Origin: Caenorhabditis elegans
Lineage: Eukaryota; Nematoda; Chromadorea; Rhabditida; Rhabditidae
Length of the DNA: 64,000 nt
NCBI RefSeq assembly: GCF_000002985.6
Contig: NC_003284.9
Coordinates: 9,796,001-9,860,000 of the forward strand
Direction: 5' to 3'
Part shown: piece after piece, positions 30,901 to 36,700 of the stretch
Layout of the letters: every line of letters starts with the position of its first letter
Position numbering within the stretch: position 1 is the first letter of the stretch
Made by a program: the position numbers and the translations under genes
The notes under the pieces: generated by a model
Told to the model about the DNA's origin: nothing
Seen by the model: the letters and a program-made list of their open reading frames with translations, nothing else
The model's database searches: none

Positions 30901-33235
30901 TATCTTCTTGCATTTCTTGTCGATGCTTTTTGCTCGTTGTTCAATGGATTAGGAAGGCGTTTGTCATCAATGAGCATCACGCAGTCGCGTGGAAAATAAC
31001 CGATCTGGAATTATTTTGTCAGTTAAGCAGAACTAATGGGTAATATGAATAGTCTGAATTTGTGAAAAAGATATATTTGTTGCCGGAATTGGAAACTTTC
31101 AAAAAATTAACTAATGCATGTATATGATATACATCACATTTGAGTAGCAGTCTCAATTACTCACTCGTTCTTTGTTAATTACAATTTTGTTTATTAAAAA
31201 ATCTAATGACAATTTAAATATCAGATAGTAAATATATTTAAAACATAAGGTACTTCTGGAAGATCAATTTAGACTGAAGCAGAAGGCATTGAACGCTTGA
31301 AAAAAGTAAAAATATATTTATGTCTTGTGCTTTTTAAATCAGAATGGGCTCTTAGAAAAGATGTTGAACAAAAATCTTCGTATAATTACTTAGCATTAAC
31401 CAAAACTTTTGCAATTTTAAGTTCAGAAGAGCCAAAGGCACGTTGATACAACATTTCCAATTAATAATAATTAAATAGACTTACTTCAAAACCTAGCCGT
31501 GCATTTTGCGGATCTACAATCTTCTGGTTGGATATAGTCAGTTTTGCTTTCCAAAATGTTTGCTCGCTGGGACTTGCTGTTGACATTTCCGTAATTGAGA
31601 CGATATCACCGACCTGCAATGTTTTTGTTTACACTTGTAGTCGCCGGGCCAAATTTGAAAGATACCCGCAGTCGCAGCTGTGAGCTTTCGGTCGGCTCAA
31701 AATCCTTTGTGACTACTGCAGCTGCGATGGCTGGCACGTTGATCGAAGTTTCTTCAGCTGGTTCAAAATGTCCGCCACGAGAGTCAATCTGTGTTTTCAG
31801 AGATTATGCGCGTAAGAGAAATAATGAAAGGATTGTCGAAATTTAGTACAACTATAATTCCTATTAAATAAAATAGCTATATCAATCGAAATAACTCAGA
31901 AAGTTTAGTGAATTAGAAAGAATTGGAGTAGTTCATTCTGGAATGTTTGTCTATGTAATAAAAAGCGTGTAAATACTTATTTATAAAAACGATTATTCCG
32001 CAGGTTTGAAAAATAACGCATGAACGTTTTCAATTTCAACTGAAAACGTTTTGGGCTACATTTAGAAGATCGTAATTTTTTGTTAAGTGATAGTTTGAGA
32101 GAACAGTTTCAGAACTGACTGAAACAAATGCAAAAAGAATGAAAAAAAAACTTGTTTGACGAAGTCCTGATACTAATGCATAATGTAGGTGTGCATTACA
32201 TTGTACATATGTTTTGCAATAAAAACAAACACAGAAATGAAATATGCACTGCAGTTAAGAGCGAGTGGTGTCAAAATCATAAGAAGAACAAGATATTTTT
32301 TCAAGGTTGTACTAGAACTCACCAATTTTGTGAGAAAGGTTCAAATAATTGAATAACTCTTTGAAATACAGACTTACTATTCTGTCAGAAAGGAAAACAA
32401 ATTTTCCTATCTGAAATGTTTGCAATACTTGAAATGAAATATTTATCGTCTTGGGTTCATTTGGTTTATTCGAATCTTTTTTAATTTAACTTTTCTAATT
32501 TGAAGAGATACTGTAAAAAGTCTAAACCATAGCCAGTTTTAAATTTAAATTAAATTGAAGTTTGGAGTTAAAAACAATTTCGCTTACTTCTAAAAATTTC
32601 AGAACAGGATAGCACGTTATAATGCTGCCAGTGAGTTCCGATAATCGCTCCGTATACTTGACAAGAACTTCCTGTAAACATCAAATGTGATGACTAGTGA
32701 TTTTGAAAAGAAGCCGTCACCTCGAACTTTGCCGTTTCCAGATGAATAAGAGGAAACAGCTCGTCAAGTCGTGAATGCCTTCGTTCGAACACACAACGAT
32801 GCAGCTGTCTGTCGAAGACTGCCCAATCCTCCCGAGAACGTTCGACAAGCCTGAATGAATCAATGATGGAAAACCTTTCAAGTTTCCGTTTTTCTTTCTT
32901 TTTTCTTTTTTGTTCTTCCTCGTACTAACTTTATTCAGCCTTTATTCTCATCTCCCATGAGACTTCACTCGTGGCTTTTTTGTTTGATTTCTGTGTGGCA
33001 GAACATTGAAAGAAAAACCGAGAGAAACACCACGGAGCACGAATTTTTGAAGACAAATTGGAAACAGAAGGAATGACCAACTCACCATGAATTTGATTCA
33101 CTTTCCACACGCATTTTTATCCGCTCTGTTGCATTCTCGTCAGCGTTTATTGCGATGATGGCAACACGGACGGGACCCAATTCAACAGACGAATAATGGA
33201 AGTGTTGACAGTCGACTAGTCGTTGAATGCGAAGA
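27964..33235 (-). CDS. rrc-1: RRC-1, PX-SH3-RhoGAP protein (ARHGAP32/33 family); 5' exon(s) not identified
   Basis: This is a GTPase-activating protein for Rac/Cdc42-type small GTPases. The first exon I can place starts after the acceptor at 33236-33237. It reads [17 protein letters not shown], the beginning of the PX-like domain of vertebrate ARHGAP32/33 (their RLVECAHFHYENVDFG). Next exons give ...[16 protein letters not shown] and an SH3 domain (from [13 protein letters not shown] through LRLRVGDIVSI to GYFPRDCV, about 31490-31790). The RhoGAP domain follows, with the arginine finger in GIYRQCG (near 30750), then [16 protein letters not shown] and [13 protein letters not shown] (about 30340-30670). 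The C-terminal third is Ser/Arg/Pro-rich ([15 protein letters not shown] near 29480) and probably disordered. The stop codon is at 27964-27966. The phase at the 33235 exon demands an upstream exon that I could not find. The symbol rests on recognising F47A4.3. Confidence 0.88.
28850..28965. repeat. Copy of a degenerate dispersed repeat in an rrc-1 intron
   Basis: It shares the tail TTTGAGCTGTATGTTCAAGA followed by CAAACCGTTAGTTCTCCTTT and AAACAAC with the 59290 copy. It sits in the intron between exons near 28430 and 28990. Confidence 0.45.
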
Positions 33236-33653
33236 CTGAAACACAATAAATTGTTGATATTCAACGAAATAAACAGTGAAGTAGTATATGAATTATTTCC
33301 AGCTAGCAAAATTTGCTTCTTTCAAAAATTTTTCAACTCACAAAGTTGATACTAAAACATTAATATTCCAATTAAAATGTTTGTGGTGAAGAAATGTAAA
33401 GATATTTTCTTGAAAGAACGCCGCAACATATCTACCAACCTTATCAGCTTTAGGAATGCATTTAGTGAAAAACTGGCTAAAGTTGGGTAAAATAAATTAA
33501 AGTTGGGGATGCGCTGAAAACTTTGCACTGAAAATGTTTCTATAGTGGCCTAAACTTGGTTAAAAAGGGCTGAAGTAGTTACAATTATTTAATGTACAGT
33601 TCGAATTATTTTTCTTTTAATGGTTATTCTTTGGTAAAACTTGATTTAATAGT

Positions 33654-33660
33654 AAAAAAA
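33654..33660 (-). terminator. Pol III terminator of the tRNA (run of 7 T)
   Basis: On the - strand a run of seven T begins seven bases after the discriminator base of the tRNA. This is a normal distance and strength for RNA polymerase III termination. It supports the tRNA being an expressed gene rather than a relic. Confidence 0.8.
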
Positions 33661-33666
33661 GGATAT

Positions 33667-33751
33667 TGCCCCGGGCGGGATTCGAACCCGCGACTGGTTT
33701 AACCCAATGAGATCATAAGTCTCACGCCTTCGACCGCTCGGCCACCGGGGC
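33667..33751 (-). tRNA. Class II (long variable arm) tRNA with anticodon UAU: nematode V-arm tRNA, nev-tRNA-Ile(UAU)
   Basis: Read on the - strand from 33751, the sequence folds into a complete cloverleaf. The acceptor stem is GCCCCGG/CCGGGGC (7 of 7 pairs) with discriminator A at 33667. The D arm is GCC...GGC with loop GAGCGGTCGAA. The anticodon stem is TGAGA/TCTCA (5 of 5) and the T arm is GCGGG-TTCGAAT-CCCGC. The anticodon loop CTTATGA gives anticodon TAT (33715-33717), which would read the Ile codon AUA. There is a long variable arm of about 16 bases, as in tRNA-Leu and tRNA-Ser. Base 37 is G and base 73 is A, both usual in tRNA-Leu. The B box GGTTCGAATCC and A box TGGCCGAGCGG are intact. 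This matches nev-tRNAs, described in nematodes as class II tRNAs with Ile or Gly anticodons that leucyl-tRNA synthetase can charge. The identity conflict is visible in the sequence; the charging is literature knowledge. Confidence 0.93.
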
Positions 33752-36700
33752 ACTGATTCTGAAAAATGTGCATCTCGTTGAAAACTGCTTGAATTGCTAA
33801 AATTGGTGGATAATTTGATGCGAATTGCCGAACGCCTGCCATTCTTGTTGTAACGGTAAAAAAAATAAATTTTTGATATCAATATTTTTCAAAAACTCAC
33901 AGTACTCGATGTTGCACTGTAACCAATAGTAAATTTTTTATGTACAACAATACACTTCATTATTTTTCCAATTTTATTGCACTGTTTTATCTGGGCAACC
34001 GATAAACACAAAAACCACCTTTTTCTAAATTCACCTAACTAAATTTTTTGCAAATAAATGGATATAATGAGGGAGACCGTAAGTGAATTTTTTGATTTAT
34101 AAACATTCTACTACAAATTCAACATATTTTGTACCCTGGTATTTCTGGATCCATCTTTGCAAGTAGTCAGTGAATAGATAAAGTCCAAAATAAAGTCATT
34201 CAATCAATTACATGAAATATTGAGATGGAATAGATAGGAGCCGAGAGGTCTCTCCTCAAGGTTCTGTTGGTGAGTGTGTAATCCCACGCTCACTACATCG
34301 TACGCTAGCTGCACTCGCCGGTCGTGGCGGTAGACAAGCGGATAAGCGATGAAACATTCAATTTTGATTGGGATGAAAGGGGAGAAAGAGATGGACCAGA
34401 GAGTGATTGCAGAAAAATCAAATTGCAAAATGTGGGCCACTGGTTAGATTTATGGAAGGACATTTATCAAAAGGTTGTTGGAAGCAATTCAATGTTTCGA
34501 AACGTTTTTAGTAAAACTGGAGAATTTTAGACCTTTCACATAGTTATTTTTCAAGAACAAAAATACAAGACAGGTCTGTATTGCAACTCTTAGAATTGCT
34601 TCAAGACGTCTTGGTAAAAATATTTATTTTAAGCAGATTGTAGAATCAGTTGTAGCACGAAGAAAAAACAAACCAAACTGTTACTCTTCTTTTAACAATT
34701 TCTTATGCATATGATGTGAATTGTTGTTTTTACAGTAAAATTGAAGTTGTCTACATAAAATTAAATTTATGTTTCAAATATACTTTGAAAAAAAGTTCCA
34801 CAACAGAAGGGAAATTACGTTACACGATGGCCCACAATTATAGGCCACCCTGCATCATTAACACGGTGCTTAAAAAATTATTATACTTTTTTTGAAAGCT
34901 TTTGAAACAAGTTGGATGAATCTAAATGTCGGGTTTCGCCCGTTTTTCTCTTAATTCTTTTCCGATTAGCTCAAATGGTTAATTCCAGACCTCAAATCTT
35001 TATTCAAAATATCTTTTGCGCAAGCAAAGATAAGTATTTTGAAAACGAAATGTTAAATTTGAGTGCATTAGGATTCTGGCAAACCTAAATCATTAAATTT
35101 TTTAAAGTTTGAAAATCTAAAAAATTTCGAAAAATCTACCTTCTTCCGTTTCTGCGTGCAAATGGGCTTTTGGGAGATAAAGGTGCAAATGATTCCTCGA
35201 TGCCTTCCATTTTTTACATCACTTTAAATGAATACGTTGCTTTTCAAATGTTTTTACCAGTTTTTGTTGTCCTCGTTATCCTTCCTGAAAATGGCAACCG
35301 GAAGTCATGAGAATAAAAGGTAAACGTGTGGTGTTTGAGGAAAAATACATGTTATAAACACACGCTTTGCTTATAGATCGGTTCGATTATTTACATGCAA
35401 ACATCATGTCAATTTGTGTTGGCAAATGAGAAGTGACGGCTTTTAGTTAGGAAAGCGGGACGAAAAGGGGGCAATCAGGAAAATCAGTTAAATTGTCGTG
35501 TGACTGAAGGAGTAAATATGGGTTCTGTTTGGAAGTTGTCAAAAATTGAGCAATGACATAGGAAGGCAGGCGTTGTTAGGAGCCAACAACCAAGAATCTT
35601 CAGACATGTGTTAAAAAATCATGTGGCCAGAAACATCTTGTTCGAGAGTTTTAGGATAAAACTGAAGATTATGATTAAGATTTTAGATATATATGTACCT
35701 CGTTTCGTGATATTTGAAGATAAACGTTGTGAGGAAGTGAGTTTCTGATGTTGTAACTTTTAAGTGGAAACTCTATTTTTGAAATTAAAAAAAGAAGGTT
35801 TTGAAGCCATACACTCAAATTTAATATGGTTCCAGAGCAAAATTTATCTGGATTATTAGAAATTTATCATAAAATTTAAAAAGGGTCGTATAATTCTACA
35901 CAAAAAACCAAAACTAAAAATAAAATAAAGCAATTTATATTTTATATTATATTCTTTATGCTTCTAAACTTTTGATTAAATATACACAAATTTCACATAA
36001 TTTTCTCGGAAAATGTGTTGTTTTTTAGAACACATACAATTAACGTTTATCACTCGACTGGGTAGAACAAAAAACGCAAAAAGAAAAAAAGCTCAGGTTG
36101 GTTCCAAAAATTCATCAACACTTGTGACACCTAGCAAAAAAGATAACCAAGCTCTTCAGGGGCAGCAGCCAACACGGATCCGTGCCGGGTTTCCGGTTTT
36201 CTAACGCAGTGGACAGCTGCTGTTGTTAAGGAGGAGAGAAAGTACAAGCCATTTGAAACCAAATTCTAGGCACAACAGGTGTCAGGATTTTCATGGATGG
36301 TTAAGGATGAGAAAGAACTGGTTGAACGATTGATGCTAATCAGTATGATTTTGAGTCAAAAATGATAAAACGAAGGGTTATTAGTGTGTTATATTTCCGG
36401 ACGCTTCATCTTCTTCATCTTCAAAGTTTCGGTCTAAAGATAAAGAAGATAGCAACGGGTCCCGAGTTTCTCTCTTCGTCTCATCAACCAATCTCCGTCG
36501 TCTTGTCTCTACGTATCACAATTCTGGCGAAGCACACACACACACATACGTTCTTCTTTTTCTACCCCTATGCTCTTTAGCTGCTGCTCTTCTGTGGAGC
36601 ACTCGATACAAATCTACCACCTGACACTATCACCGCATTGGGTGAGACGGGCTTGCTGGTTCAAATGTTCTTGCAGACAAAAATGACCGTCATATGCTCT

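Follow-up and report, generated by a model that had tools for sequence, protein, structure and literature searches.

An intact nev-tRNA-Ile(UAU) gene of Caenorhabditis elegans and an invariant heptamer upstream of nev-type tRNA genes

The 64-kb stretch of C. elegans DNA analysed here (the window; chromosome X, 9,796,001-9,860,000) contains, on its minus strand at 33667..33751, a real and intact 85-nt gene for the already published class II (V-arm) nev-tRNA-Ile(UAU), and this gene shares with its relatives an upstream heptamer, TTCAGAA, at a fixed distance from the tRNA. On balance we consider it fairly probable that this is a nev-tRNA-Ile gene with a start element belonging to its family, whose product can be charged with leucine but reads AUA poorly, and which has been kept for a role beyond its anticodon. 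Both the gene and the biochemistry of its product are already known. The first report of nev-tRNAs is said to be that of Hamashima in 2012, and ever since it has been a puzzle why intact tRNAs with irregular charging persist in nematodes.

In the window ARAGORN predicts just one tRNA (33666-33752, minus strand, Ile anticodon TAT), and the sole Rfam match is to the tRNA model RF00005 at 33667-33751, which scores 62.9 bits where the cut-off is 29 (E 2.8e-11). In the stem check all 20 of 20 pairs are formed (acceptor 7, D 3, anticodon 5 and T 5), and the V arm consists of four pairs, UUGG/CCAG with one U-G, around a 6-nt loop. The anticodon loop CTTATGA (RNA CUUAUGA) gives U33, the anticodon UAU and G37, while the discriminator is A73. 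The internal promoter is complete, as box A (TGGCCGAGCGG) and box B (GGTTCGAATCC) both fit the consensus. The initial annotation had described a leucine-like class II tRNA with UAU, G37 and A73, fully paired stems, a long variable arm and intact promoter boxes; these features are all borne out, and the gene can now be assigned to the minus strand. The annotated T7 tract is likewise present as Pol III terminator (33654..33660, minus strand), but it follows a trailer of 6 nt (33661-33666) and not one of seven bases; Pol III termination in C. elegans is reported to occur at T runs of four or more (PMC2527325). A long V-arm cloverleaf without mismatched stems, the anticodon of a class I isoacceptor (UAU, Ile) and a place in a nematode nuclear genome identify the gene as a nev-tRNA gene, and with its class II body, UAU and perfect cloverleaf it shows no difference from the published C. 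elegans nev-tRNA-Ile(UAU), the name nev-tRNA for these genes being that of PMC4300185. Neither decayed stems nor many degenerate copies, as expected of a tRNA-derived repeat or pseudogene, were found; all stems pair, there are at least five near-identical copies, some with an identical body, and the annotated view that this is not a decayed pseudogene holds.

A similarity search with the window tRNA in its own genome (100,286,401 bases in seven contigs, here designated C1 etc. by contig number) yielded at least nine matches, namely the window itself, four near copies on C1, a single C3 gene (79%) and a group of three at C1:10.60 Mb (76%); E. coli genomes gave no match, as expected. The 85-nt body is identical (85/85) at C1:9563836, C1:9562344 and C1:7960828, and the fifth Ile copy, at C1:9558783, has lost 2 nt of the anticodon loop and carries one substitution there (82/83, 2 gaps). 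There are thus four intact nev-Ile genes and a fifth with a damaged anticodon loop, the counts being lower bounds. For comparison, a class II set of 60 sequences was assembled from 59 genome places of a D-arm pattern, which misses some class II genes, and from C3:6726990. Eleven nev-type genes were assigned without use of the upstream motif, by a class II body with an ARAGORN anticodon other than Leu or Ser together with body similarity: five Ile, three Gly, C3:6724195, C3:6726990 and C4:11721157. Body similarity ties the Ile and Gly genes to C3:6726990 and, separately, the C4 gene to both C3 genes, as a body search from the C4 gene matches the gene itself and these two. The two C3 genes, with anticodons that read CTT and CCT, lie 3 kb apart within C3:6724135-6727088 and both carry the nev heptamer.

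TTCAGAA (33757..33763 in the window, minus strand), preceded by a T run, occupies exactly positions -12 to -6 in all 11 of the nev-type genes found without the motif. The heptamer occurs in none of the 49 other class II genes between -30 and -1, a group made up of 40 genes of the ARAGORN Leu and Ser families, eight resembling the intron-bearing Leu-CAA (five of these were scanned and received no ARAGORN call) and one unclassified sequence (L088), with a few of the 49 being degenerate. It is also missing from the 50 bases inspected at each of 30 class I genes of Ile and Lys type, whose flanks were taken from a run of the Rfam tRNA model over the genome; that run served solely as the source of these controls, and no nev gene is among the 63 matches listed of 8106 candidates. 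By Fisher's test the association gives p 1.6e-11 when calculated by gene (with 10 nev genes in place of 11), although genes within a lineage are not independent; by lineage, the heptamer is present in five of the five found without it. A genome pattern that combines heptamer, box A and box B matches 27 places as compared to one for the reversed control, whereas heptamer and box A alone make too loose a pattern (1166 matches against 333 reversed) and were discarded. Eleven of the 27 places are the nev-type genes, and one more, at C1:8781165, is a class II gene that brings the number to twelve; the remaining 15 are tRNA-like, mostly of a repeated CGCAGTG type, and none of these looks by eye like an ordinary tRNA gene. 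The heptamer is therefore not exclusive to nev genes. Nor does C1:8781165 provide evidence for the motif, since the motif was used to find it; a body search from this gene finds only itself in the genome, so that its membership is argued from fold and heptamer. This locus (C1:8781153-8781250, minus strand, L120) is a class II tRNA-like sequence in which the nev heptamer stands at its usual position, the anticodon loop has 6 nt and the acceptor, V and T stems are paired.

Is the heptamer more than a remnant of common descent? We compared six nev lineages (Ile, Gly, two on C3, C4 and C1:8781, the last found by the motif), whose bodies are 60-85% identical with a mean of 71%. Their flanks agree at 33% in -30 to -23, 44% in -22 to -14 and 45% in -5 to -1, but at 100% in -12 to -6, and these seven are the only invariant positions from -30 to -1; if the motif-found lineage is left aside, -4 is added. 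When ordinary genes were drawn at random, sets of five gave invariant runs of at most 3 and sets of six runs of at most 2; none of the 20,000 draws, which gauge chance and not shared descent, reached 4 or more. It is the contrast between the heptamer and its diverged neighbouring bases that bears on the question of descent. Among copies of one body the conservation extends further: over 30 bases the 5' flanks of nev-Ile and nev-Gly genes are 97% and 98% identical, respectively, as compared to means of 24-37% in seven families of ordinary same-body genes, in which single pairs reach up to 93%.

The position of the heptamer suggests what it might do. In the C. elegans UM2 genes, which have tRNA-like promoters, the reported transcription start precedes box A by 9-13 bp (PMC2527325). 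With the same spacing the start is expected here at about -2 to -6, so that heptamer and T run would abut it, and we infer from the sequence that TTCAGAA is a family-specific Pol III start-site or TFIIIB-contact element. In lying at gene starts it would resemble the UM1-UM3 motifs of C. elegans small RNA genes, which are elements at the starts of Pol II or Pol III genes. However, UM1 is described as PSE-based, UM3 as PSEB plus GTATA and UM2 as a pair of A and B boxes, all unlike TTCAGAA, which is not named among the UM motifs in the available portions of that paper (PMC2527325). A search of the open-access literature for such an upstream element returned no mention of the heptamer, and a term search of PMC4300185 found 'upstream', 'promoter' and 'flanking' zero times each. 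Two other roles were considered for these bases and dropped. TTTTTCAG/A agrees with the splice acceptor consensus of C. elegans but was set aside as such, as splicing has no other support. The heptamer as a general mark of tRNA-like repeats is likewise unsupported as a rule: the 17-mer TGGCGCAGTGGGATTTT, from a tRNA-like repeat with box A, occurs at 141 genome places (contigs C1, C2, C4 and C5 are among the matches listed), some copies have box B, and TTCAGAA lies at about the nev distance in at least 5 of the 141.

The identity of the Ile copies is highest in the tRNA and on its upstream side. The 5' flank from -33 to -1 (33752..33784, minus strand) shares 30-32 of 33 bases with the four C1 copies, whereas identity over the 100 bases downstream is 42-76% for these four pairs. 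In three of these pairs homology covers part of the 3' flank only, so that unrelated sequence enters into their low figures (42-57%, beside 30-31/33 in the 5' flank and a tRNA that matches at 85/85 in two pairs and at 82/83 in the third); the fair comparison is that with C1:9563836, which shows 32/33 in the 5' flank, 85/85 in the tRNA and 74/97 in the 3' flank. Such an identity of tRNA and 5' flank could result from selection on both or from gene conversion limited to these bases.

The state of the anticodon loops also bears on function. In four of the 12 nev-type genes the loop is abnormal, with 5 nt at C1:9558783, 6 nt at C1:8781165, 11 nt at C4:11721157 and A33 at C3:6724195, while acceptor, V and T stems are kept; in C3:6726990 there is a mismatch at 27-43. 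All five aberrant members form 7/7 acceptor pairs (one of them a wobble in C1:8781), 5/5 T-stem pairs with wobbles counted and at least four V-arm pairs, although the outermost V pair tried fails in two. The V-arm sequences vary by lineage yet remain complementary. ARAGORN labels these members Glu (C1:9558783), undefined (C1:8781165), Pro (C4:11721157), Lys (C3:6724195) and Arg (C3:6726990), labels that should not be taken as a guide to decoding identity. The loop-damaged members may be young pseudogenes or may be a sign that selection is not on the anticodon; in any case one would not expect such damage in a family selected for reading AUA. Then again, UAU is kept in four of four Ile genes with a 7-nt loop and CCC in three of three nev-Gly genes, which speaks against a freely varying anticodon in the main members.

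The biochemistry of the products comes from PMC4300185. As reported there, nev-tRNAs are charged in vitro with leucine only, and they are expressed, CCA-tailed, exported and, by RT-PCR, scarce, a method to which identical copies are indistinguishable. The earlier statements that nev-tRNAs with Ile(UAU) and Gly(CCC) anticodons have been reported and that they accept leucine in vitro thus stand, and the window locus is one of these genes. Species with nev-tRNAs are listed in a review (PMC4033280). nev-tRNA-Gly(CCC), encoded by the three genes at C1:10.60 Mb, shares with the window tRNA its class II body, G37, A73 and the position of the heptamer but is only 77% identical over tRNA and near flanks and has other acceptor and V-arm sequences. 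Ordinary cytosolic tRNA-Leu is also of class II with A73, and Leu-AAG genes have G37 as well; it differs in the anticodon and in the heptamer, found in none of the other class II genes examined.

But does the window tRNA, as the initial annotation proposed, form part of a built-in recoding or mistranslation system? We find this unsupported, and the tRNA probably does not rewrite the genetic code. A weaker form of the proposal would be that the leucine-charged tRNA acts at AUA at a low level or conditionally, in some tissue or under stress, where ambiguity between Leu and Ile would be chemically mild. We regard this as unlikely, even though several points speak for it: UAU is present in four of the five Ile copies, whose bodies are 85/85 identical, and PMC4300185 describes, besides leucine-only charging, CCA addition and export, the use of nev-tRNA-Gly for protein synthesis in vitro and proposes a role for nev-tRNAs in stress. 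A change from Ile to Leu was not sought there as the masses are equal, and AUA showed no specific error pattern. Against it stand the low abundance, the abnormal loops in the fifth copy and in relatives, and the finding that the sister nev-tRNA-Gly caused no detectable Gly-to-Leu change at GGG codons, whether whole cells or a purified reporter were analysed (PMC4300185). To these we add G37. Nearly all tRNAs that read ANN codons carry t6A37 (PMC5372738), and a loop fit for efficient ANN reading has U36 together with A37 for t6A; here G37 stands beside U36, and t6A, being a modified adenosine, cannot form. G37 and low abundance together predict that nev-tRNA-Ile would read AUA poorly, and G37 thus offers a reason why recoding at AUA would be weak. 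It leaves unexplained the negative proteomics of nev-tRNA-Gly, which has C36 and reads GGG, so that t6A37 is not at issue and low abundance or exclusion from the ribosome must account for the result there. A cognate tRNA-Ile(UAU) exists according to PMC4300185; a query by an approximate base pattern gave no match to an ordinary tRNA-Ile(UAU) in the genome.

If the tRNA is no efficient reader of AUA, it could be a functionless by-product, that is, a tRNA-Leu gene duplicated long ago whose anticodon has shifted and which has been spread by copying, homogenised by gene conversion and is weakly transcribed. The copies are indeed dispersed, partly clustered and partly damaged, that of the window lies inside a repeat, and syntenic orthologs are reported for only 44% of nematode tRNAs, which was read as fast turnover or recent proliferation (PMC3923123). 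We nevertheless think this improbable, because divergent V-arm stems have stayed complementary, because a 7-base element is invariant across lineages whose neighbouring bases are not, and because bodies identical at 85/85 lie beside 3' flanks of 42-76%. Still far less probable, and largely refuted already, is that the anticodon reflects a sequence error or that the gene encodes a true isoleucine tRNA charged by IleRS. Nothing but the anticodon itself speaks for this, and the leucine-type V arm, A73 and the leucine-only charging in vitro (PMC4300185) contradict it. The occurrence of the same anticodon loop at four loci speaks against a misread anticodon, and with the 85-nt body repeated at three further C1 loci, an error in the anticodon loop at a single locus, the caveat raised originally, is unlikely.

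We therefore return to a nev-tRNA-Ile gene with a family start element as the reading we prefer. Pol III would transcribe the gene from its internal A and B boxes, aided by the TTCAGAA that abuts the expected start, and the product would be a genuine tRNA that receives a CCA tail, is exported and can be charged with leucine. Owing to its scarcity and to G37 without t6A37, it would rarely if ever place leucine at AUA codons, and the family would be kept for a role which rests more on the leucine-accepting body and its own promoter than on the anticodon. More tentatively, and with considerable doubt on our part, nev-tRNAs might be a dedicated set of Pol III RNAs that accept leucine and act without decoding, the start element placing them under a separate expression programme and the identity of the anticodon being secondary, as the stems kept by members with 5-, 6- and 11-nt loops or A33 would suggest; such RNAs might sense or sequester LeuRS or leucine, or might give rise to tRNA fragments. 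By way of the invariant heptamer all nev genes could be located, silenced or driven, which makes the function of the family testable.

As to the local setting, the gene belongs to a tRNA-bearing cassette of 211 bases (33573..33783, minus strand; 89% identical to C1:9563746-9563959), which is flanked by two parts of a MITE-like repeat on the same strand. The left part, upstream of the tRNA (33788..33831), has at least eight matches of 84-87%, and the right part, downstream (33419..33576), recurs at 14 or more further places with 70-82%. The cassette is absent from between the repeat parts in eight aligned copies, and ARAGORN finds no tRNA in five repeat copies; judged by these alignments, the cassette of the window copy lies within an old MITE-like element (33419-33831). 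A scan of window positions 33200-34100 for inverted repeats revealed one unrelated palindrome only, so the ends would seem too worn to pair, and a scan for tandem repeats found none. That the ends are nonetheless inverted repeats is suggested by C1:9867205-9867233, which matches both ends in opposite orientation. At C6:1982608-1983125, the unclassified L088 mentioned above, a class II-like D-arm match ends in an unusual, C-rich 3' stretch, lacks the heptamer and gets no tRNA call from ARAGORN. Pfam, run on 6 of the 87 open frames listed in the window, left two of the six without a match and identified on the minus strand a RhoGAP domain at 30.3-30.7 kb, with a second frame at 30.7-31.0 kb just below the cut-off, and Patatin and ankyrin at 38.0-40.0 kb.
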